NCBI RefSeq assembly: GCF_030816505.1
Contig: NZ_JAUSYB010000001.1
Span: 2,914,001-2,978,000, forward strand
Direction: 5' to 3'
From: Microbacterium sp. W4I20
GTDB lineage: Bacteria > Actinomycetota > Actinomycetes > Actinomycetales > Microbacteriaceae
DNA length: 64,000 bases
Made by a program: the position numbers and the translations under genes
Shown here: piece after piece, positions 19,411-30,046 of the stretch
How positions within the stretch are numbered: the first letter of the stretch is position 1
Layout of the letters: each line of letters begins with the position of its first letter
Notes under the pieces: generated by a model
Seen by the model: only the letters and a program-made list of their open reading frames with translations
Database searches by the model: none
What the model was told of the DNA's origin: nothing

Positions 19411-19950
19411 ATGGCACAGATCCGATCGGATGCCGCGCGCAGTCGCGCACGGATCCTCGACATCGCACGGACGCACGATGCTGGCTCGCTGCGCCTGAAC
19501 GACGTCGCTCGGGAAGCCGGCGTCGGAGTCGGAACGGTCTACCGGCATTTTCCGACCGTTCACGCACTGGTCGAGGCGCTCTCCGCGGCGACGCTCGAGC
19601 GGATGTCGGTGATCGCGCGCACTGCGGTGCAGCATCCGAATCCGGAGGAAGCCCTCGTCGAGTTCCTCGACGCCGCCCTGGAGCTTCAGCTGCAGGACGG
19701 CGGACTGCAGGCGGTGCTGCTCTCTCCCGACGATGAGGACGAGTCCGTCCGCGCGATGAAGATCGAGATCTTCGCCACCTTCGACGGGGTGCTGCAGCGG
19801 GCCCGAGAGGCGGGACTGGTGCGCCCGGACCTGTCGATCGTGCAGATCGAGCACCTGATCTGCGGCGTCGAGCACGCCGTGCGCATCGGCGCCCCCGAAG
19901 ACCGCGCGCTCTTCCTCGACATCCTGATCGCCGGCATCCGCCCGCGCTGA
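19411..19950 (+). CDS. TetR-family regulator
   Basis: 179 residues. The N-terminal HTH (about 10-55) has LNDVAREAGVGVGTVYRHFPTVHALVEAL; the C-terminal helical domain is short but complete, of the SACE_7040-like type. TAGGAT (19399-19404) lies exactly 6 nt before the ATG with no ribosome binding site, so the mRNA is probably leaderless. It is divergent from the SDR gene with two operators in the gap. Confidence 0.88.
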   Translation: MAQIRSDAARSRARILDIARTHDAGSLRLNDVAREAGVGVGTVYRHFPTVHALVEALSAATLERMSVIARTAVQHPNPEEALVEFLDAALELQLQDGGLQAVLLSPDDEDESVRAMKIEIFATFDGVLQRAREAGLVRPDLSIVQIEHLICGVEHAVRIGAPEDRALFLDILIAGIRPR

Positions 19951-19980: not shown

Positions 19981-20020
19981 TCGACATCTGTCGAACGGAT
20001 GAGGCCGGCGGCGACCGTAG
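19981..20020 (+). promoter_or_regulatory. conserved palindrome plus -10 element upstream of the bicupin gene
   Basis: TCGACATCTGTCGA (19981-19994) is a perfect 6-2-6 dyad; 21 nt later comes CGTAG (20016-20020, reading on as TAGGCT). The same arrangement precedes the genes starting at 24320 (minus), 25722 and, weaker, 29210. Confidence 0.65.
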
Positions 20021-20069
20021 GCTCGGCCTCGCCGGCGGTCCGGTCCGCCGCAGACGAAGGAGCGCCGGA

Positions 20070-21284
20070 ATGGAATCGACGGACCCGACCGCACCGCATC
20101 ACGAGACGCCGACCCTCGGCAACCCCGACCTGCCGCCGGAGGGCGAGGGCAACACGCTCGCCGATCCGCAGAGCACCGCGATGACAGGACCGCGCAATCC
20201 CGTCATCGAGAGTCAGTTCCCCAGCCAGCTTCATGCGCCGGGGACCGACATCAGCACGCAGCCGATGTTCTGGTCGTCGTTCAACATCTCGCCGCGTCGG
20301 GTGCAGGCCGGCGGCTGGGCGCGGGAGCTCACACGTCAGGACTTCCACATCTCCGAGGAGATCGCGGGCGTCAACATGTACCTGCAGGCCGGCGGCATCC
20401 GCGAACTGCACTGGCATCAGACCGCGGAATGGGCGGTCATGACGCGGGGGAAGTGCCGGGTGACCACCCTCAGCCGCGACGGACGCCCCAGCGTGGAAGA
20501 CGTCGAGGAGGGCGATCTCTGGTTCTTCCCGGCCGGCACCCCGCACTCGCTTCAGGGGCTGGGACCGGACGGCGCCGAGTTCGTGCTCGCCTTCGACGAC
20601 GGGGATCAGTCCGAATCGAACACACTGCTGCTCACCGACTGGTTCGCGCACACTCCGCCCGATGTGCTGGCGAAGAACTTCGGGGTGGTGCAGGAGGCCT
20701 TCGCCGACATCCCGCTGCACAACCTGTGGATCTTCCCCGGTGACGAGCCCGGCGATCTCGCGCAGGACCAGGCGGATGCCGGAGTCGAGTGGGGCGCCGC
20801 GGAACCCATCATCTTCCGCCTCTCGCGCTCGCAGCCGCTGCACGAGAACAGCGGCGGCAGCATCCGGATCGCGGACAGCACCAATTTTCCGCTGTCGAAC
20901 ACGGTGGCCGCCGCGCTCGTCACCGTCGAGCCGGGCTCGATGCGCGAACTGCACTGGCACCCGAACGCCGACGAGTGGCAGTACTACCTGCGAGGATCGG
21001 CCCGGATGACCGTGTTCGACACCGGTCCGCACGCTAACACGACGGACTTCCGGCCGGGTGATGTGGGAGTGGTGCGCAAGAACCTCGGCCACTACGTCGA
21101 GAACACCGGCGACGACGTGCTCCAGTTCCTCGAGGTCTTCCGTACCGACCGGTATGAGGAGGTCTCACTGGCGAACTGGCTGGCGCACGTGCCCCCGTCG
21201 CTGGTCGCCGCGCACCTGAACATCGACGAGGCGACGCTCGCGACGTTCCCGCGGGCGGCGCAGGGGATCACCCCGCTGCGCTGA
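20070..21284 (+). CDS. bicupin, oxalate decarboxylase-like
   Basis: 404 residues with two cupin barrels. The first has GGIRELHWHQTAEWAVMTRG with the HxHxxxxE pattern and LWFFPAGTPHSLQG (fourth ligand His). The second has GSMRELHWHPNADEWQYYLRG and GDVGVVRKNLGHYVEN. These are the two Mn-binding sites of the oxalate decarboxylase family (oxalate to formate and CO2). No export signal is present, so it is probably cytosolic. Non-oxalate bicupins exist, so the substrate is an inference. It has its own promoter of the shared type at 19981. Confidence 0.87.
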   Translation: MESTDPTAPHHETPTLGNPDLPPEGEGNTLADPQSTAMTGPRNPVIESQFPSQLHAPGTDISTQPMFWSSFNISPRRVQAGGWARELTRQDFHISEEIAGVNMYLQAGGIRELHWHQTAEWAVMTRGKCRVTTLSRDGRPSVEDVEEGDLWFFPAGTPHSLQGLGPDGAEFVLAFDDGDQSESNTLLLTDWFAHTPPDVLAKNFGVVQEAFADIPLHNLWIFPGDEPGDLAQDQADAGVEWGAAEPIIFRLSRSQPLHENSGGSIRIADSTNFPLSNTVAAALVTVEPGSMRELHWHPNADEWQYYLRGSARMTVFDTGPHANTTDFRPGDVGVVRKNLGHYVENTGDDVLQFLEVFRTDRYEEVSLANWLAHVPPSLVAAHLNIDEATLATFPRAAQGITPLR

Positions 21285-21297
21285 CGCCTACGAACCA

Positions 21298-23532
21298 TCA
21301 CGGCTGTTCGAGTGGGACCAGCGCCTCGAGGATCTCCGCCGCCCACCAGTCGGGGCGCTCGTGCTCCTCGACCAGATCGAGGGCCTGCCGCAGGTCGAGG
21401 CGCGCCTTCTCGTGCTCGCCGAGGCCGAGGTGCGCGAAACCGCGATGCCGGTACGCGCGGGCGAGGAAATCCGACTCGTGCGGGAAGAACGACGCGTCGT
21501 CCATGATCCGATCGGCCACGTCGACGGCCTCGGCGTAGCGGCCCAGCGCGAGGAGCGCTTTCGCCGCGATGGCCGTCGTGACGCCGTTCGCCGTGTTCCA
21601 CTCCCGGAGAGGGAGGTCTGACTCGTGCTCGTCGAGCGTCCGGCGCATCTCGACGGCCTGTGCAAGAGCGCTCTCCGGGTCGTCCTCCATCAGAGTCATG
21701 GCGATCCAGTATCGGCTCTGCACCTGCGCCTCGGGGGACGCGTGGGCGATCGCCTCCGCGAGCGCGAGGCCGGCCGACTCCCGTGCTGCCGCAGTCTCTC
21801 CTCGCAGGGTCTCGCTCCACGCGACCGAGATGAGCGCCCACGACGCGGCTTCGGGGGCTCCTGCCGTCTCCGCCACCGCGCGCGCACGGACCGCGATCTC
21901 CTGCGCGAGGTCGGGATCGCCGTCGAAGAGCGCGAGCTCGAGGGCGGCCATCATCTGCAGCTGCTCGGCCAGCGCCACGCCGTCGCCCAGACGCTCGGCG
22001 GCGGTGACCGCGATCTGCGCGACCGTTCTCCAGTGCGGGAAGCTGAGCCATCGCTCGGCGAAGCGGATGAGCGCGCCGGCGGCCGCGAGAACCGGTTCCT
22101 GCGGGTCCGTCGGACTGGCCGCGGCGACCTTGAGAGCTTCGAGCCACGAATCGGATTCCGTGGTGAGCCAGTCTCGCGCCGATGCGAGAGTCACATCCCC
22201 GGCGCCGGCGGCGGCATCCATCTCCTCGGTGAACAGCGCCATCGTGCGAGTCGTATCGAGCGTCCACCGGCGAAGCCGAGCGCGCTGGGCGTCGATGTCG
22301 TCGGCCGACTGCGCCGCGACGAGCTGCTCCTCGGCGAAGATGCGGAGCAGATCGTGGATCCGGTATCGCTCACCGCTCAGCGGCTCGAGCAGAGCGAGGT
22401 CGGTCAGCTCGTCGAGGATCTCTGCGGTCGTCTCGTCCTCCAACGGATGCATCGACGCGACCATGTCGGCACGGAACGACGAACCGGTGATCAGCGGGAT
22501 GCTGCGGAAGACCAGCTGCGATCTCGGGGTGAGGGCGTCGAACGAGAGCGCGAACGTCGATGCGACACGCAGGTCTCCCGCGACCAGATGCCGGAGTCGA
22601 GTGGCCTCTGCGCGCAGGCGCGCCGTGTAGTCCTCGACGGTCCAGGCAGGTCGCGACGTGATGCGATTGCCCGCGATCCGGAGCGCGAGGGGAAGGTCGG
22701 AGCACAGCTGGGCGAGTTCGTCGAGGTCGCCGCGGGTGCGCTGGGGCTCAGGGATCATCCGGGTGAGGAACGCGATGCCGTCGGGCCGCGCGAGCGGGCC
22801 GAGCACGACGCGGCGGGAGCCTTCGAGCCCGGCCAGCGAGCGCCGCGAGGTGAGCACGACCCGCACCGGGTGCGACGCGGTCAGCACCGGTCGAACCTGC
22901 TCCTCGACCGTCACGTTGTCGAGGAGCACGGCGAGAGTCCCGGATGCGCTCGCTCGACGCCAGGCGGCGACGGCGTCGTCCATCGTGTCGGGTTCCTCAC
23001 GGGTGGCGGTCTGTCGGAGGAGTGCCTGGAGCACCTGCAGTGGAGAGAGGGGGAGCGTGTCGGGGCTGTGCACGTTGACGAACAGGACGTCGGTGCTGTC
23101 ACCCGTCGCGCGATGGAGGGCTTCGAGAGCGACCGTCGTCTTGCCGACCCCGCCCGTGCCGGTGATCAGGATCGGTGTCGACGTCGCGGTGTCCGCCGGT
23201 GACAGCATCGCGGCGATAACCCGCATCTGCTCCTCGCGCCCGCTGAAGTCCGGCAGTCGGAGCGGGCGGATCGCGGCGGAGGTGTGATCGCCCGTCGCTC
23301 CCCGACGACCGGGACGTGCGGCACCGAGGAACTCGGCCCGCTCTTGTCCGGTGAGCTCGAGACCGTCGGCGAGCGCGATGACCGTGCGTCGCTGCGGGCC
23401 GATGCTCTTCCCGCGCTCGATGTCGCCGATGGTTCGCGGGCTCACGCCGGATCGCTCCGACAGGCGCTCGATGGTGAGATCGGCATGCTGGCGTCGGCGG
23501 CGCAGGAGAGTACCGAACGGATGCTGCGACAC
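21298..23532 (-). CDS. XRE-HTH / NB-ARC ATPase / TPR-like regulator
   Basis: 744 residues. An XRE-type HTH lies at about 5-60 (LTIERLSERSGVSPRTIGDIERG). Then an NB-ARC/STAND ATPase follows: SGREEQ, P-loop GTGGVGKTT at 125-133, Walker B LAVLLDN, sensor VVLTSRR and LPLAL. A winged-helix region (YRIHDLLRIFAEEQL) and helical TPR-like repeats run to the C terminus. Such proteins in actinobacteria are signal-gated regulators; similar scaffolds also occur in STAND defence proteins. It converges with the bicupin gene (13 nt apart). Confidence 0.83.
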   Translation of the reverse strand: MSQHPFGTLLRRRRQHADLTIERLSERSGVSPRTIGDIERGKSIGPQRRTVIALADGLELTGQERAEFLGAARPGRRGATGDHTSAAIRPLRLPDFSGREEQMRVIAAMLSPADTATSTPILITGTGGVGKTTVALEALHRATGDSTDVLFVNVHSPDTLPLSPLQVLQALLRQTATREEPDTMDDAVAAWRRASASGTLAVLLDNVTVEEQVRPVLTASHPVRVVLTSRRSLAGLEGSRRVVLGPLARPDGIAFLTRMIPEPQRTRGDLDELAQLCSDLPLALRIAGNRITSRPAWTVEDYTARLRAEATRLRHLVAGDLRVASTFALSFDALTPRSQLVFRSIPLITGSSFRADMVASMHPLEDETTAEILDELTDLALLEPLSGERYRIHDLLRIFAEEQLVAAQSADDIDAQRARLRRWTLDTTRTMALFTEEMDAAAGAGDVTLASARDWLTTESDSWLEALKVAAASPTDPQEPVLAAAGALIRFAERWLSFPHWRTVAQIAVTAAERLGDGVALAEQLQMMAALELALFDGDPDLAQEIAVRARAVAETAGAPEAASWALISVAWSETLRGETAAARESAGLALAEAIAHASPEAQVQSRYWIAMTLMEDDPESALAQAVEMRRTLDEHESDLPLREWNTANGVTTAIAAKALLALGRYAEAVDVADRIMDDASFFPHESDFLARAYRHRGFAHLGLGEHEKARLDLRQALDLVEEHERPDWWAAEILEALVPLEQP

Positions 23533-23600
23533 GGGTCCCTCTTCTCCCTAGTCCTGATGAGGAGAGTGGCAGATCAGCAGATGCCGCGCAAAGCCGGACT

Positions 23601-24320
23601 CTACGGGATCAGATCGGCGGCGGCGTCGAGCAGGAGGTCGACGATCTCCGTCGGGTGGGTGCGCATGACCAGATGCGGCGCATCCAGTTCGAGGATTCGC
23701 CGGGCCTGCGCGCGCCGGCATCCGAAGCGCTGCAGGTCGGGATGGATGGTGCGGTCGCCGAGGGAGACGACTCCCCAGGTCGGTCGATGGCGCCAGGCGG
23801 CGGTCGGGGCGCGCTCCGACAGAGCGGCGACGGCGATCGGCCGCTGCGAGACCGCCAGCACCTGTGCCTCGTCGTCGGACAGGCCTTCGGCGACGAGGAA
23901 CGGGAACTGCGGGATGTCGATGCTGAGCTCGGTGCCGACCGTGTCGCGCTCGTCGCGGAAGAGGGCGGCAACCAGGTGACGAGCGATGTCGGCGCGCGGG
24001 AAGAGCTCGCGCAGCTCGGCGATGTTCTCGCCGGCGTCGAGCACGTAGCCGTCGATGAACACCAACCCGACGACCTGCGTCGAGGCCCCGGCGACCGCCG
24101 CGACGGCGCCGCCGTAGCCGTGACCGACGAGGATGACCGGTCCGTCGATCCGATCGACGACGCAACGGATGTACGCGCAGTCGCCGGCGAAGCTGCGCAT
24201 CATGATCGGCGGTGCGAGGACCCGATGCCCGCTGCCCAGGAGCCTGAGGGTGATCGGCCACCAGCAGGAGGCGTCGGTGAAAGCACCGTGCACGAGAACG
24301 TACGTGAGCGGGGGAGCCAT
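23601..24320 (-). CDS. alpha/beta-hydrolase fold protein lacking the nucleophile serine
   Basis: 239 residues, similar to the EstC/pyrethroid-hydrolase-like alpha/beta hydrolases: YVLVHGAFTDASCWWP, then ILVGHGYGGAVAA at the nucleophile elbow, and a late DAPHLVMRTHP histidine. The elbow reads G-H-G-Y-G instead of G-x-S-x-G, so the catalytic Ser is Gly68. It may be inactive, a binding protein, or use another residue. Its promoter (24358-24397, minus strand) shares the conserved palindrome architecture. The gene is divergent from the PucR-like regulator. Confidence 0.8.
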   Translation of the reverse strand: MAPPLTYVLVHGAFTDASCWWPITLRLLGSGHRVLAPPIMMRSFAGDCAYIRCVVDRIDGPVILVGHGYGGAVAAVAGASTQVVGLVFIDGYVLDAGENIAELRELFPRADIARHLVAALFRDERDTVGTELSIDIPQFPFLVAEGLSDDEAQVLAVSQRPIAVAALSERAPTAAWRHRPTWGVVSLGDRTIHPDLQRFGCRRAQARRILELDAPHLVMRTHPTEIVDLLLDAAADLIP

Positions 24321-24357
24321 TCGCCTGCCTCGGAACCGGGGAAACAACCCTCTGAAG

Positions 24358-24397
24358 CTACGTCCGAAGACCACGGGTGAGTTCCGACGGATGTCGT
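24358..24397 (-). promoter_or_regulatory. conserved palindrome plus -10 element upstream of the alpha/beta-hydrolase gene
   Basis: On the minus strand ACGACATCCGTCGG (24397-24384) is followed after exactly 21 nt by CGTAG (24362-24358), the same spacing and element as at 19981 and 25653. Confidence 0.65.
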
Positions 24398-24404
24398 GCA
24401 CGTC

Positions 24405-24418
24405 TCGACATCCGTCCG
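24405..24418 (+). promoter_or_regulatory. second copy of the shared motif upstream of the PucR-like gene
   Basis: TCGACATCCGTCCG matches the shared palindrome but is imperfect on its right arm, and no CGTAG occurs 21 nt later. With the copy at 24384-24397 it forms a larger inverted arrangement in the divergent region, which could allow autoregulation. Confidence 0.45.
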
Positions 24419-24530
24419 TTGACGCGACGAGCCGGGGCACACCTCCTCGATTTCTGCCTGCTTTCTGCCTGGTGCGCGGCGCCGCGACGCGGTTCAATCG
24501 CAGCAACACCACCGAGCAGGGGAGTGTCTG

Positions 24531-25646
24531 ATGACCGATGTCGCCCTCGCACCGCACGGAGACCGCGCAGCCTCTCTCCGGGGAGTCGTCGAGGAGTTGT
24601 CCGTGCTCCTCGACCGGACGGTGGTCGTCCACGACGAACAGCGCGCCCTCACGGTGCGCAGCGGCTCGCCGTCGGACGTCACCCGCCACCTGCGGATCCT
24701 GACCCCGGTCGAGGAGACGGCGAACGACGAGATCGACCTCGAGACGCCGGTCACCGGGCGCGCCGGGTTCCTCGGGCGCATCCTCGTGCTCGCCGACGAA
24801 CGACGCCCGCTGCCGCGCGGTCACCTCGATGCGCTGGATGCTGCCGTCTCGCTGGTGCGCGCGGTCCTCGACGATCGCGCCCTCCCCGCCGCACCCGGGC
24901 GCGACGAGGTGTTCGCCGATCTGCTCGCCGACCATGTCGCCGTGCGCCGCACGGCCTTCGCCGTCGCGACGGGGCAGCTATGGATTCGCGGCGGCGAGGG
25001 AACACGCATCCATGCCGTGCGCGTCGACTCCGCCGTCAGCACCGTCATGCTGGTGGCGATGGGTCGCCGCCTCGCGGCCGCCCGGCACCTTCCCTTCGCC
25101 TCTCTGGGCGTGAGCAGGGGCACGCTGTATCTGATGAGCGCACCCTCCGAGGTGCCACTCCACGACGAGATCATCGCGGACGCGGCCGCCCACGGCATTC
25201 GCGTTCTCGGCATCGGCACGGCGTCACCGTCGCCGGGCGCGGAAGACCTCTGGGCGGCGGCGCACGAGGCTTCGAGCGCCGCCGAGCTCTCGGCCACGTT
25301 CGAGGCGTTCCAGCCGGGCGTCGACGTCGCAGAGTTGGGCGGATGGCTCCTCCTGGCCTCGTCCACGGTCGAGCCCGCGCGGCTGCGAGTGATCTCGCCG
25401 GCCGCGCACGCCCTCTACTTCGAGGGCGGTGAGTCGCAGCGTCGCACGGTGGAGACCTATCTCGACGTGAGCGGCAATGTCGTGGCCGCCTGCGAGCTGC
25501 TCTTCGTGCATCGGACGACGCTCTACTACCGCCTCGAGAAGATGCCGTCTGTGGTGCGCGACGCACTCGCCGACGGCATGAAGCGCAGCACCCTGCACCT
25601 CTCGCTCAAGCTGATCCGGATGTGGGAAGCCACGGGACGCGTGTAG
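24531..25646 (+). CDS. PucR/CdaR-family helix-turn-helix regulator
   Basis: 371 residues. The N-terminal part (about 20-110) looks like a degenerate GAF/PucR sensor. The C terminus has the PucR-type HTH_30 domain: VETYLDVSGNVVAACELLFVHRTTLYYRLEKM. Such proteins usually activate catabolic genes in response to a substrate. It sits in the centre of the genes sharing the CGACATCYGTCG motif and is the best local candidate to bind it. GGGGAGTG precedes the ATG. Confidence 0.8.
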   Translation: MTDVALAPHGDRAASLRGVVEELSVLLDRTVVVHDEQRALTVRSGSPSDVTRHLRILTPVEETANDEIDLETPVTGRAGFLGRILVLADERRPLPRGHLDALDAAVSLVRAVLDDRALPAAPGRDEVFADLLADHVAVRRTAFAVATGQLWIRGGEGTRIHAVRVDSAVSTVMLVAMGRRLAAARHLPFASLGVSRGTLYLMSAPSEVPLHDEIIADAAAHGIRVLGIGTASPSPGAEDLWAAAHEASSAAELSATFEAFQPGVDVAELGGWLLLASSTVEPARLRVISPAAHALYFEGGESQRRTVETYLDVSGNVVAACELLFVHRTTLYYRLEKMPSVVRDALADGMKRSTLHLSLKLIRMWEATGRV

Positions 25647-25652
25647 CCATCC

Positions 25653-25692
25653 TCGACATCCGTCGAGTGCCGACGTGCCGCCGCCCTCGTAG
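25653..25692 (+). promoter_or_regulatory. conserved palindrome plus -10 element upstream of the DyP operon
   Basis: TCGACATCCGTCGA (25653-25666), 21 nt, then CGTAG (25688-25692, reading on as TAGAGT). It has the same spacing as the sites at 19981 and 24358. Confidence 0.65.
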
Positions 25693-25721
25693 AGTGGACG
25701 CCTCACCGATCGGAGGAAGAC

Positions 25722-26696
25722 GTGAGTTCATCTCCTGCGGCTTCGCGTCGCGTCCCCATCGAAGCCCAGACGGTCGATGCGCCGCTCAGCGGCTGCGCCG
25801 TGTTCCTCGTGCTGCGGGTGCATGACGACCAGGCGGCGCTCGACACCGTGCGCGACACCCTCGGCAGCCTGGGTGAGGTCGTCAAGAACGTCGCCTTCCG
25901 CGACCTGGATGCTGCGCTGTCGTGCATCGCCGGGATCGGGGCTCGCGTGTGGACGCCGCTCACCGGCCGACCGCTCCCGAGCGAGCTGCATCCGTTTCGT
26001 CCGGTCGTCGGCGCCCAGCACACGGCCATCGCGACGCCGGGGGACATCCTCTTCCACATCCGCTCGGACCGCCGGGATCTCGTGTTCGAACTGGAACGTC
26101 AGCTCCTCGACCTGCTCGCGGGTGCGGTCGACGTCGTCGACGAGACCGTGGGATTCCGATACTTCGACATCCGCGATCTGCTCGGCTTCGTCGACGGCAC
26201 CGCGAACCCTGTCGGCGCCGCGCTCCCCGAAGCGACGCTCGTGGGAGACGAAGACCCCGAGAACGCAGGCGGCAGTTACGTCGTCGTGCAGAAGTACACG
26301 CATCCGCTGCGCGCATGGCAGGCGCTGACCACCGAGCAGCAGGAGGCGATCATCGGCCGCACCAAGGCCGACAACATCGAGCTCGACGACGCCGTCTCCG
26401 GCCAGAAGTCGCACAAGACGCTCTCCACGATCGTCGTCGACGGGCAGGAGCACGACATCCTCCGCGACAACATGCCGTTCGGGAGCCCGGGCACCGACGA
26501 GTTCGGCACGTACTTCATCGGCTACACCCGTCACCTGTGGGTGATCGAGAAGATGCTCGAGCGCATGTTCATCGGCGACCCGCCGGGGGTGCACGACCGG
26601 CTCCTGGACTTCTCGGTGCCGCTCACCGGCTCGACCTTCTTCGCGCCGTCCGCGACGGTGCTCGAGTCGCTGGCGGATGCCGGCTCGGACGCATGA
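25722..26696 (+). CDS. DyP-type haem peroxidase (class B-like)
   Basis: 324 residues. The DyP signature GFVDGTANP holds the distal Asp158; the proximal haem His is probably His231 (QKSHKTL) and the distal Arg is Arg248 (DILRDNMPFG). Spacing of these three residues is close to that in DypB of Rhodococcus. There is no Tat or Sec signal, so it is cytosolic, and no encapsulin gene is nearby. It oxidises phenols, dyes or haem-related substrates with H2O2. GTG start after CGGAGGAAG. It overlaps the MFS gene by 4 nt. Confidence 0.9.
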   Translation: MSSSPAASRRVPIEAQTVDAPLSGCAVFLVLRVHDDQAALDTVRDTLGSLGEVVKNVAFRDLDAALSCIAGIGARVWTPLTGRPLPSELHPFRPVVGAQHTAIATPGDILFHIRSDRRDLVFELERQLLDLLAGAVDVVDETVGFRYFDIRDLLGFVDGTANPVGAALPEATLVGDEDPENAGGSYVVVQKYTHPLRAWQALTTEQQEAIIGRTKADNIELDDAVSGQKSHKTLSTIVVDGQEHDILRDNMPFGSPGTDEFGTYFIGYTRHLWVIEKMLERMFIGDPPGVHDRLLDFSVPLTGSTFFAPSATVLESLADAGSDA

Positions 26697-27928
26697 GCGG
26701 CGTCTCGCCGACGACCCCTCGGGCTCGCGCCTCGCACGGCGGCGGGTTCTGGATCGTCGCGACCACCTTTCTGCTGGTCATGGCGTACTCCACCGTGCCG
26801 ACCCCGCTGTACCCGCTGTACCAGGAGCGCGACGGTTTCCCGGTCTGGATGATCACGGTCATCTTCGCCGCCTATGCGGTCGGGGTCGTGTTCAGCCTGT
26901 TCTTCGTGGGGCACATCAGCGATTGGGCGGGGAGGCGACGGATGCTGCTCATCGCGGTCCTCGTCTCCGCGCTGTCCGCCGTGCTCTTCCTGCTGTGGAG
27001 GACCCCGGAGGGACTCATCGTCGCCCGCCTGATCAACGGCGTCAGCGTCGGGATCCTCACCGCGACGGCGACCGCCCATCTGGGTGAGCTGCGCGCGACG
27101 GCCCGACCCGATGAGAACGCCGTCGTCGCCGCCTCGGTCGCCGGCGCCGCGAACCTCGGCGGGCTCGCCCTCGGACCGCTCATCGGGGGACTGTTCGCCG
27201 AATTCCTTCCTGCCCCGCTCTTCACCCCGCACGTCGTGTTCCTCGTCATCCTGATCCTCGCCGGGATCGTCGTGACGGGCGTGCCGGAGACGGTGGACCC
27301 GCCCACCGACCGGGTGCACTACCGGCCGCAGCGACTCGCTCTTCCGGCCGGTTCGCGCGGTGCGTTCATCGCCGCCGGCTTCGGGGCGTTCGCGGCGTTC
27401 GCGCTGCTGGGACTGTTCACCTCTCTCGCCCCGTCGATCCTCGCCGGCACCTTCCAGGAGGGCGACCATCTGGTCGCGGGCGCGACGACGTTCGCCGTGT
27501 TCGGCGCGGCCGCGGTCGGTCAGCTGGCGCTCGCGAAGCTGCCGCTCGGGCGTCAGCTGATGATCGCGACCGTCAGTTGCGGCATCGGTCTCGCCGCGGT
27601 GGCTGCGGGCGCGCTGGTCCCGCAGTTGGCCGTCTTCCTCCTCGGCGGCATCGTCGCCGGGCTCGGCGTGGGAGTCCTGTTCAAGTCGTCCATCGCCACG
27701 GCATCCGGTCTCGCCGAGCCGACGAGGCATGGGGAGACCCTGGCTCTGATCTTCCTGATCGCCTACTGCGGCTTGGCGCTCCCTGTTCTCGCCGTCGGGG
27801 TCGCGCTGGTGTTCCTCCCCGAGAATCTCGTGCTCGTCGTCTTCGTCGCGCTGGTGCTGCTCTCGACGGTGGCGGCCGGCATCGCGATGACCCGACGAGC
27901 GAAGTCCGGCTCGGCCACCTCTCCGTGA
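26693..27928 (+). CDS. MFS transporter
   Basis: 411 residues with about 12 hydrophobic segments. The loop 2-3 motif GHISDWAGRRRMLL is typical of major facilitator superfamily proteins, and the N-terminal TVPTPLYPLYQ segment is common in actinobacterial drug/metabolite exporters. ATG 26693 overlaps the DyP stop (ATGA). Placed between a peroxidase and a monooxygenase, it probably moves their substrate or product across the membrane. Confidence 0.87.
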   Translation: MSGVSPTTPRARASHGGGFWIVATTFLLVMAYSTVPTPLYPLYQERDGFPVWMITVIFAAYAVGVVFSLFFVGHISDWAGRRRMLLIAVLVSALSAVLFLLWRTPEGLIVARLINGVSVGILTATATAHLGELRATARPDENAVVAASVAGAANLGGLALGPLIGGLFAEFLPAPLFTPHVVFLVILILAGIVVTGVPETVDPPTDRVHYRPQRLALPAGSRGAFIAAGFGAFAAFALLGLFTSLAPSILAGTFQEGDHLVAGATTFAVFGAAAVGQLALAKLPLGRQLMIATVSCGIGLAAVAAGALVPQLAVFLLGGIVAGLGVGVLFKSSIATASGLAEPTRHGETLALIFLIAYCGLALPVLAVGVALVFLPENLVLVVFVALVLLSTVAAGIAMTRRAKSGSATSP

Positions 27929-27946
27929 GGATGTGAGGAAGAACCC

Positions 27947-29098
27947 ATGCCTGCACGCTCCCGCTCCACTCTGAACATCGCCGTGATCGGCGGCTCGCTC
28001 GGCGGCCTCTTCGCCGCCGTTCTGCTGCACCAGGCGGGGCACACGGTGACGGTCTTCGAGCGATCGACCGAGGGGCTGTCCCGGCGGGGTGCGGGACTCG
28101 TGGCGCAGCAGGAGCTCTTCGAGGTGTCGCGTGCCGTCGGCATCCATGTCGACGACAGCTTCGGGGTGGAGGCGTACGAGCGCATCACCCTGGATCGTTC
28201 GGGTCGCGTGCTCTCCCGCGATGCCACGCCGCAGGTGCAGCTGTCGTGGGACGTGCTCTACGAGGAGTTCCGATCGCGACTGCCGCAGGAGGGGTATCGG
28301 TTGGGAGCAGCTGTGACCGCCGTGCGCACCGACGGCGAGGAGGCGGTGATCGCCTTCGCCGACGGCGCGGAGGCACGGTTCGATCTCGTTGTCGGGGCCG
28401 ATGGACTGCGCTCCGTCGTGCGCCGTGCCGTGGCCCCCGAGGCGCACGAGAACACCTACGTGGGCTACGTGACGTGGCGCGGCCTCGTGCCCGAGCTGTC
28501 GCTGCCGCCGACGTCGGCGCGGACCCTGCTCGAGCGCTTCGCGTTCTTCACCGCGCCGGGTGCGCACATGCTCGGCTACCTCGTCCCGGGGTCGGCCGGG
28601 GAGACCCGGCGGGGCGACCGCCGCTACAACTGGGTCTGGTATCGACCTCTCACCGCCGCTGATCTGGCCGCCCTCATGAGCGCGGTGGGTCGGAGTGCGG
28701 GGAGCGTGTCCACCGCCCCGGGAGAGCTTCCGCGCACCCTCCGCGACGAACTCGTGCGCGATGCGCACCGCGAGCTTCCGCCGCCGTTCGCCGAGGCGGT
28801 CGAGGCAGAGGGCTCACCGTTCCTGCAGGCCATCTTCGACTACGTTCCGCCGCGGATGACGCGGGGCCGGGTGGCCCTGATCGGCGACGCCGCCGCCGTG
28901 GTCCGGCCGCATACCGCGATGGGGGCGGCGAAGGCGGCCGGCGATGCGATGACGCTGGCCGCGCTGCTGGGCGAGCACGACGTCCCGCGCGCTCTCGCCG
29001 GTTTCGACGCCGACCGTCTGCCGATCGCCCGGGCGATCGCCGACTACGGACGGCGGCTCGGCGCCGGCATCCCCCTCCTCGCGCCGAGCCGCCGCTGA
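27947..29098 (+). CDS. FAD-dependent monooxygenase
   Basis: 383 residues, group A flavoprotein hydroxylase. IAVIGGSLGGLFAAVLL is the ADP-binding start (GxGxxG variant GGSLGG at 15-20), LVVGADGLRSVVR is the DG motif, and RVALIGDAAAVVRPHTAMG is the GD motif. The PHTAMGAAKAAGDA ending is like 2,6-dihydroxypyridine hydroxylases. It would hydroxylate an aromatic or N-heteroaromatic substrate using NAD(P)H. It follows the MFS gene by 18 nt in the DyP operon. Confidence 0.86.
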   Translation: MPARSRSTLNIAVIGGSLGGLFAAVLLHQAGHTVTVFERSTEGLSRRGAGLVAQQELFEVSRAVGIHVDDSFGVEAYERITLDRSGRVLSRDATPQVQLSWDVLYEEFRSRLPQEGYRLGAAVTAVRTDGEEAVIAFADGAEARFDLVVGADGLRSVVRRAVAPEAHENTYVGYVTWRGLVPELSLPPTSARTLLERFAFFTAPGAHMLGYLVPGSAGETRRGDRRYNWVWYRPLTAADLAALMSAVGRSAGSVSTAPGELPRTLRDELVRDAHRELPPPFAEAVEAEGSPFLQAIFDYVPPRMTRGRVALIGDAAAVVRPHTAMGAAKAAGDAMTLAALLGEHDVPRALAGFDADRLPIARAIADYGRRLGAGIPLLAPSRR

Positions 29099-29111
29099 TG
29101 TCGCCGATCAC

Positions 29112-29151
29112 GCGACAAATGTAGGAGCCTCTGCGACCGGTTCGAGCGTTA
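29112..29151 (+). promoter_or_regulatory. weak copy of the shared palindrome upstream of the chloroperoxidase-type gene
   Basis: GCGACAAATGTAGG (29112-29125) keeps CGACA-NN-TGT, and CGTTA (29147-29151) stands exactly 21 nt downstream, the spacing found at the three stronger sites. Confidence 0.4.
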
Positions 29152-29209
29152 CCGTGGGAGCGCTCCCCGCTCGAGAGCACACTCGAAACGACACGACTTG
29201 GAGACCCTC

Positions 29210-30046
29210 ATGGCTTTTGTGACCACGGATGACGGTGCGGAGATCTACTTCAAGGACTGGGGCGACCGCGACGCCCAGCCCATCATGTTCCACCACGGCT
29301 GGCCGCTGTCGGCCGACGACTGGGACGCGCAGATGCTGTTCTTCCTCGAGAAGGGCTTCCGTGTCATCGCCAGCGACCGGCGCGGGCACGGCCGGTCCTC
29401 GCAGATCAGCACCGGGCACGACATGGACCACTACGCCAGCGACGCGAACGCGGTGGTCGAGCACCTCGACCTGCGCAATGCGATTCACATCGGTCACTCG
29501 ACCGGCGGCGGCCAGGTCGCCCGCTACGTCGCGCAGTACGGAGAGCCGCAGGGGCGGGTGGCGAAGGCCATCCTCGTGTCGTCGGTTCCGCCGTTGATGG
29601 TGCAGACCGAGGCGAACCCCGACGGCACTCCCGTCTCGGTCTTCGACGGATTCCGCAGCGCGCTCGCCGCGAACCGGGCCGAGTTCTACCAGGCCGTGGC
29701 ATCCGGGCCCTTCTACGGCTTCAACCGCGAGGGTGCCGCCGTGTCGGAGCCGGTGATCGCCAACTGGTGGCGCCAGGGGATGATGGGCAGCGCGCTGGCT
29801 CACTACGAGGGCATCAAGGCGTTCTCCGAGACCGACCAGACCGAGGATCTGAAGGCCATCTCCGTGCCGGTCCTGGTCACGCAGGGCGACGACGATCAGG
29901 TCGTCCCCTACCGCGACGCGTCGGTCAAGCAGCACGAGCTGCTCAGCGACTCCACCCTCAAGATCTACGAGGGCTACCCGCACGGGATGCTGACGGTGCA
30001 CGCCGACGTCATCAACCCCGACCTGCTGGCGTTCATCCAGCAGTAG
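29210..30046 (+). CDS. non-haem chloroperoxidase/esterase-type alpha/beta hydrolase
   Basis: 278 residues. HHGWPLSADDWDAQ (oxyanion hole), SDRRGHGRSSQ, IGHSTGGGQVARY (nucleophile Ser97), QGDDDQVVPY (Asp) and EGYPHGM (His) match the cofactor-free haloperoxidase/perhydrolase/arylesterase family. Such enzymes hydrolyse esters and can form peracids from H2O2. Cytosolic. ATG 29210 follows TTGGAG; an earlier ATG at 29198 precedes that site and is less likely. A strong terminator follows. Confidence 0.89.
   Translation: MAFVTTDDGAEIYFKDWGDRDAQPIMFHHGWPLSADDWDAQMLFFLEKGFRVIASDRRGHGRSSQISTGHDMDHYASDANAVVEHLDLRNAIHIGHSTGGGQVARYVAQYGEPQGRVAKAILVSSVPPLMVQTEANPDGTPVSVFDGFRSALAANRAEFYQAVASGPFYGFNREGAAVSEPVIANWWRQGMMGSALAHYEGIKAFSETDQTEDLKAISVPVLVTQGDDDQVVPYRDASVKQHELLSDSTLKIYEGYPHGMLTVHADVINPDLLAFIQQ

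Follow-up and report, generated by a model that had tools for sequence, protein, structure and literature searches.

Four palindromes with a shared promoter spacing in Microbacterium sp. W4I20 point to a redox-gene regulon under a candidate PucR-type activator

We analyzed a 64,000-nucleotide stretch of the Microbacterium sp. W4I20 genome (contig NZ_JAUSYB010000001.1, positions 2,914,001 to 2,978,000; hereafter the window, with coordinates counted from its first letter), in which a gene cluster carries four copies of a short palindrome, each at nearly the same distance from a promoter-like element. Genes were assigned by domain search. The cluster begins with a bicupin of the oxalate decarboxylase family on the plus strand (20070–21284; Pfam Cupin_1; TIGR03404, 520.9 bits against a cutoff of 254.2), just 5′ of which lies a TetR-like gene (19411–19950). 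On the minus strand follow an XRE-NB-ARC-TPR protein with an HTH_31 domain (21298–23532) and an alpha/beta hydrolase, Abh6 (23601–24320), which precedes the XRE gene on the same strand and in which GHGYGG replaces GHSYGG. Divergent from Abh6 is a gene for an HTH_30 (PucR-type) regulator with a C-terminal helix-turn-helix (HTH), the candidate activator (24531–25646, plus strand; Pfam HTH_30, 1.9e-13). It is followed, all on the plus strand, by a DyP-type peroxidase (25722–26696), an MFS transporter (26693–27928), a FAD monooxygenase (27947–29098; FAD_binding_3, PRK07236 subfamily) and a second alpha/beta hydrolase, Abh1 (29210–30046), which the original prediction, made from the letters of this DNA, had labeled chloroperoxidase-type.

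The palindromes, hereafter boxes, were read directly from the sequence. The first, TCGACATCTGTCGA, lies 5′ of the bicupin gene (19981–19994, plus strand; also recovered in genome and window scans) and is followed after 21 nt by CGTAG (20016–20020); the −10-like element TAGGCT (20018–20023) stands 23 nt past the palindrome. Between the divergent Abh6 and PucR genes, ACGACATCCGTCGG occupies 24384–24397 and reads on the minus strand toward Abh6 (genome scan), again with 21 nt from the palindrome (24397–24384) to CGTAG (24362–24358) and with TAGCTT (24355–24360) as the −10-like element. The same 21 nt separate TCGACATCCGTCGA (25653–25666, plus strand; genome scan and comparison of DyP promoters), 5′ of the DyP-MFS-monooxygenase genes, from CGTAG (25688–25692), within which TAGAGT begins (25690–25695). 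These three −10-like assignments draw on the spacing statistics given below. The fourth box, the degenerate GCGACAAATGTAGG 5′ of Abh1 (29112–29125, plus strand; window scan and promoter alignment), lies 21 nt from CGTTA (29147–29151); here CGT keeps its place, but the TA of the −10-like TACCGT (29150–29155, inside GTTAnCGTG) comes at 24 nt rather than 23. Thus, the palindromes, gaps and downstream elements of the original prediction were all exact at the positions it gave, and so was its additional copy, CGACATCCGTCC (24405–24418, plus strand), which has one mismatch. This copy stands 21 bp from the palindrome at 24384–24397, and a like arrangement is found in another genome of the genus, G054 (locus L099, 9214/9235). 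The copy has no −10 element at the standard spacing in either direction; two palindromes 21 bp, or about two helical turns, apart would allow paired binding.

We then assessed how rare this arrangement is in the W4I20 genome (4,310,960 bases, two contigs). The core sequence CGACATCYGTCG occurs nine times in the 4.31 Mb, three of them within this 5.7-kb stretch, while the control gave none. The exact motif CGACATCYGTCG-N22-CGTAG has three matches genome-wide, every one of them here, so the full motif is not scattered at random through coding DNA. The next best were four matches with two mismatches. At up to three mismatches there were 85 matches versus 47 for the reversed control, and loose matches are therefore mostly noise. 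A looser rule (TCGACRNNYGTCGA with up to three mismatches, plus TAnnnT 22–24 nt downstream) returned exactly four matches in the window, namely the four sites described above. Order-1 Markov copies of the window, however, gave a mean of 2.75 matches (four copies, largest five), so that the window count alone is unconvincing and the degenerate fourth site is unproven by the window; the case rests on comparative evidence.

A close relative of the PucR-like protein (E up to 1e-60) is encoded in 13 of 366 genus genomes, W4I20 included; of 295 genomes of the genus, 39 have a match at E up to 1e-20. Around the close PucR genes, DyP, bicupin, Abh6, XRE-NB-ARC, MFS, monooxygenase and Abh1 genes recur, with order and orientation changed and not all of them everywhere. 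To quantify the spacing, we scanned for TCGACRNNYGTCGA and counted each palindrome once per direction, provided that a gene call begins no more than 250 bp away in that direction. Across the 13 close-PucR genomes (14 loci), TAnnnT stood at 22–24 nt in 36 of 83 intergenic cases with up to two mismatches. In contrast, control DNA, comprising 20 unselected 20-kb stretches (400 kb) from 10 genomes of the genus in which PucR has no match at 1e-20, gave 0/14 at up to two mismatches and 1/97 at up to three. These stretches replaced an earlier control (5/108 at spacing 23) that was biased because its loci had mostly been fetched by the spaced pattern. No correctly spaced TAnnnT was found among seven cases in 20 DyP or XRE loci that do not lie near a PucR gene (one of which, L151, belongs to G224, a genome with a PucR cluster elsewhere), nor among 12 cases in the part of the window beyond the cluster. 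With up to three mismatches allowed, the spaced element accompanied 36 of 152 intergenic but only 5 of 1165 coding cases in the first 11 loci, and the other offsets from 5 to 37 each had at most three intergenic cases. Relatedness among sites raises all such counts, and these 36 intergenic sites reduce to 21 when grouped at 75% identity.

The rule also held in two genomes that had played no part in forming it. G299 and G305 each have exactly four sites per 20-kb locus, 5′ of MFS, Abh6, DyP and Abh1, while order-1 Markov copies of the two loci gave means of 0.7 and 0.3 sites (10 copies each). The sites of G299 are very like those of G127, which leaves G305 as the more independent test. Across the 13 close-PucR genomes, the families with a box directly upstream were DyP (11/13), Abh6 (9/10), MFS (8/12), Abh1 (8/12), MFS_3 (3/9), monooxygenase (2/3), a peroxiredoxin-like family (2/2, named by eye) and bicupin (1/8); one box also lies upstream of an aquaporin-like gene (named by eye) in L104. 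The boxed families, with the bicupin of the oxalate decarboxylase family, read as peroxide- or toxin-linked detoxification, and the oxidative or detoxification role put forward in the original prediction is plausible in its content, judging from the gene families. In two of the genomes, G134 and G125 (L106 9213 and L108 9298), the locus has no Abh6 match, yet a box and −10 element typical of Abh6 are kept and now stand 5′ of MFS_3.

To examine the fourth site, we aligned Abh1 promoters from nine genomes. GTTAnCGTG is kept in eight of the nine, with GATATCGTG in L100, and the alignment places 29112 at the orthologous promoter position. The palindrome itself varies: ACAAAnGTAGGAG is common to W4I20, L101, L104 and L100, a clear TGGACAGATGTCGAG occurs in L102, L103, L106 and L107, and L105 has neither variant. 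Accordingly, orthology supports the degenerate site claimed at 29112 as a promoter position, although the box there is a variant and a poor palindrome, which may be bound with low affinity.

Alignment of the 36 intergenic sites from the first 11 loci, which include those of the window, yielded the consensus yTCGACAnnyGTCGrrG, about 20 nt, then TAGnnTCG; TAnnnT was required in selecting the sites, so its constancy is partly by construction. No TTGACA-like columns, i.e., no −35 element, appeared among them. This bears on whether an alternative sigma factor of the extracytoplasmic function (ECF) type, using the palindrome as its −35 and CGTAG as its −10, might read these promoters. Such a factor would account for CGTA or CGTT at a fixed distance in W4I20. 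However, the CG before TA is not kept among the 36 sites, and the upstream element, a palindrome with two-fold symmetry, stops 22–24 nt short of TA, too far away for a −35; sigma factors have −35/−10 spacers of about 15–19 nt, and ECF −35 elements are non-palindromic. We consider a sigma factor very improbable. The original prediction had offered one activator or an alternative sigma factor as the reader of all four sites; the spacing peak, together with the co-occurrence described next, favors the activator, while the missing −35 and the 22–24-nt gap speak against the sigma factor.

We therefore turn to the activator and to evidence on which protein reads the box. Among the 30 best-scoring DyP matches, a box (up to two mismatches) with its −10 was found at the DyP promoter in 9 of the 11 genomes that encode the close regulator, versus 0 of 12 without a regulator match (Fisher p 6.7e-5, assuming independence). 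For instance, G005 encodes the DyP most similar to that of W4I20 (85% identical) with an MFS gene beside it; in this genome the regulator has no match at 1e-20, and the 19 kb examined contain no box. In G054 a boxed DyP-MFS locus (2.50 Mb) is separated by 1.76 Mb from the regulator (0.74 Mb), indicating that whatever reads the box can do so from afar; the distant locus also has an MFS_3-type transporter and a reading frame that by eye resembles a MOSC protein. Moreover, all 10 close-PucR loci having Abh6 carry a palindrome between the divergent Abh6 and PucR genes, with a −10 in nine. We also considered a genome-wide factor such as LexA, because the letters of the palindrome resemble the actinobacterial SOS box. 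A universal factor would leave unexplained that the DyP box follows the PucR gene, and in W4I20 the full motif in its exact form occurs nowhere but here; we give this explanation almost no credence. Together, the spacing peak, the distant boxed locus and the co-occurrence make the PucR-like protein, one of two candidates named in the original prediction, the prime candidate for reading the box.

The other candidate was the XRE-NB-ARC-TPR protein, with the PucR-type protein a mere neighbor. It has an HTH_31 domain and is present in all 13 close-PucR genomes, so that XRE and PucR do not separate inside this set. Outside it they do: seven loci round XRE relatives in genomes without a close PucR have no palindrome (up to two mismatches) with a spaced −10, while ten distant-PucR loci without XRE (no match in the fetched stretch, nor in the genome at E 1e-70) show the spacing peak in 15 of 113 cases at up to three mismatches and 8 of 39 at up to two. 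Spaced boxes occur in nine of these ten loci at the looser and in six at the stricter threshold. In another genus, Herbiconiux daphne has spaced boxes 5′ of a monooxygenase and of an Abh1 homologue, with no XRE match in 21 kb. The XRE gene itself looks like a target: it has no box directly upstream in any of the 13 genomes, and in 11 it comes right after another gene on its own strand, Abh6 in two and MFS in nine, the exceptions being G272 and G192. It is therefore a probable member of the regulon, and we regard it as an improbable reader. In two of the distant-PucR loci (L117 7798 and L118 7903), a variant box, TCCGTCAGACGTCGAA, stands with the same spacing 5′ of a gene with a molybdopterin oxidoreductase domain.

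The box reaches somewhat beyond the genus. HTH_30 loci at 39–47% identity from outside it, mostly of Microbacteriaceae (L172–L178), had the element at 22–24 nt in 5 of 59 cases, with at most one case at any other offset. In the 11 close-PucR genomes, the consensus pattern with up to one mismatch had 32 matches versus three for the reversed control. Fourteen of these lie inside cluster loci and 18 elsewhere, four of the latter having been inspected; thus, either relatives also carry the box outside the cluster, or some of these matches arise by chance. Among the off-cluster places, L200 4646 (G192:C1:1119646) has a box and −10 at spacing 23, 75 bp 5′ of a luciferase-type monooxygenase frame (by eye), L197 4940–4953 (G054:C1:348908) has a perfect palindrome and −10 at 23 nt with no clear downstream gene, L198 has a two-mismatch box, and L202 has nothing under the stricter rule.

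Besides the off-cluster matches, the shared presence of XRE and the relatedness of the sites, several further findings weigh against one PucR-type activator reading these boxes. The exact literal motif is found in none of the 294 other Microbacterium genomes. With up to one mismatch it appears in 58 of 295, exact in W4I20 only, and many of the one-mismatch matches share a single, nearly identical sequence, apparently a conserved piece of coding DNA. Only one of eight genomes has a bicupin with its own box, which makes that site a feature of the W4I20 genome. In G192, whose PucR call spans only 245 aa, none of the boxes in the cluster is correctly spaced, G272 lacks the spaced box 5′ of DyP and of Abh6, and eight boxes in close-PucR loci are not upstream of any listed gene family. 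In distant-PucR genomes, none of seven DyP promoters has a box with a −10 (one has a loose palindrome), and the DyP palindromes of L111 and L115 lack the −10. HTH_30 loci of more distant actinobacteria (L179–L195) gave 3/145 without a peak, so HTH_30 regulators do not in general come with this box. Lastly, the HTH region of the regulator was modeled with low confidence.

The protein at 24531 matches PF13556, the C-terminal PucR HTH, at 50.4 bits (cutoff 27), as do all 10 aligned close-PucR proteins. PF07905, the N-terminal PucR domain, is absent from the three families of the window protein and from the seven listed for the 10 members (E up to 1), and we therefore class the protein only as an HTH_30 regulator. 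PF17853, the GGDEF-like middle domain (GGDEF_2), matches four of the 10 members weakly (best E 0.021) and not the window protein, and GAF matches three with weak E-values. The predicted model (mean pLDDT 71, HTH below 50) has regions with a GAF-like and a GGDEF-like strand order. A Foldseek search with the whole model returned mostly GAF and GGDEF matches with large rmsd, and was used for domain layout only. The first transcription regulator listed, at rank 4, was a C-terminal fragment (9f80) of MabR (Rv2242) of Mycobacterium tuberculosis, to which the model bears a weak resemblance (E 2.7e-3, probability 1.00, TM 0.30/0.42, 20% identity); a sequence search with the protein (P0001) found no match among solved structures. 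In G224, a second PucR-like gene lies directly 5′ of DyP (L104 16205–17110).

Based on this evidence, we propose that the four sites are probably operators of one activator, most likely the HTH_30 protein at 24531. A PucR-type dimer would bind TCGACA-NN-TGTCGA, whose half-sites are separated by about one turn of the helix. If TAnnnT is the −10, the palindrome would span about −49 to −36, with its center near −42; the 22–24-nt spacing puts the center at −41.5 to −43.5 if T is taken as −12, for a putative start. A center near −42 and no recognizable −35 correspond to the geometry of a class-II activator site, at which the dimer would stand in for the −35 contact and recruit the housekeeping holoenzyme. 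In W4I20, the activator would turn on the bicupin, Abh6-XRE and DyP-MFS-monooxygenase units, and Abh1 weakly; binding, activation rather than repression, the operons and the start sites are all predicted here from sequence. A redox or toxic-compound signal may be sensed by the N-terminal region of the regulator. Palindromes near promoters also serve as repressor sites, and the TetR-like gene just 5′ of the bicupin supplies a local candidate besides the PucR-type protein for repression of otherwise normal promoters. Yet the promoters have no −35 and look activator-dependent, the distance is held near −42, and a TetR gene occurs in the fetched loci of only one of the 13 genomes, so a repressor operator seems a poor fit to these sites.

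The activator proposed here has known counterparts. According to passages of PMC7652997, GabR of Corynebacterium glutamicum is a PucR-type activator of gabTDP without a GGDEF domain, encoded divergently from its targets, which binds two inverted repeats at a site immediately upstream of the −35; the same passages describe the PucR regulators studied as activators, except PucR of B. subtilis, which is both activator and repressor. Like GabR, the window regulator is of PucR type, local, divergent from a target and associated with inverted repeats (PMC7652997). Unlike GabR, the window system comprises several dispersed units, with a distant locus in one relative, has no PF07905 match and uses another repeat, and its targets are redox and hydrolase genes rather than GABA catabolism. 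In MabR, the recognition helices of the dimer lie about 34 Å apart, which suits half-sites one turn apart (PMC11617747); MabR differs in its globin-like N-terminus, its control of mycolic acid synthesis and its DNA target. As for geometry, PMC4390567 describes a Mor dimer at the phage Mu promoter Pm, bound to a 16-bp element that contains short inverted repeats and is centered at −43.5, and acting with sigma-70 holoenzyme. Mor is an unrelated phage protein, and the analogy concerns geometry only. The text passages of a paper on MmyB-like proteins (PMC3406030) give no box sequence.

If correct, this would be a new regulon under a known kind of regulator. By title or the start of the abstract, none of the papers listed on PucR-family regulators or on DyP with Microbacterium describes it, and in the library searched we found no paper naming both PucR and a DyP-type peroxidase. 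The regulon would be defined at the level of the operator, through a palindrome at a fixed distance from the −10 and a candidate regulator that can be named, and it would bring a DyP peroxidase, a bicupin of the oxalate decarboxylase family and a hydrolase without its serine under one proposed switch. Because its genes have been shuffled, inverted and in one genome split over two loci while the operator-to-promoter geometry held, it offers a natural experiment in promoter evolution.

The serine-less hydrolase also merits attention in itself. All 10 close-PucR loci having Abh6 (the window gene at 23601–24320, L099–L104, L107, L206 and L207) encode it without the nucleophile serine, which is replaced by Gly in eight, Ala in one and Asp in one. 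In contrast, the GHSYG serine is kept in all seven Abh6 relatives checked at distant-PucR loci. Abh1 has an intact GHSTGG in the 14 relatives checked. Plant GID1 is a hydrolase-derived receptor, and by that parallel Abh6 could be a ligand-binding non-enzyme that signals the presence of a toxic inducer to either the PucR-type activator or the XRE-NB-ARC protein, an idea that we offer as speculation. If true, Abh6 would be a hydrolase-derived receptor inside a bacterial redox regulon. Two minor observations concern gene calls. Sixteen DyP matches in the genus were flagged with an in-frame stop, but in the nine of these loci that were examined the first stop falls at match residues 312–322, the ordinary end of the gene. 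At L112 (13374–14085), the Abh6 homologue matches in two pieces, and a frameshift is possible.

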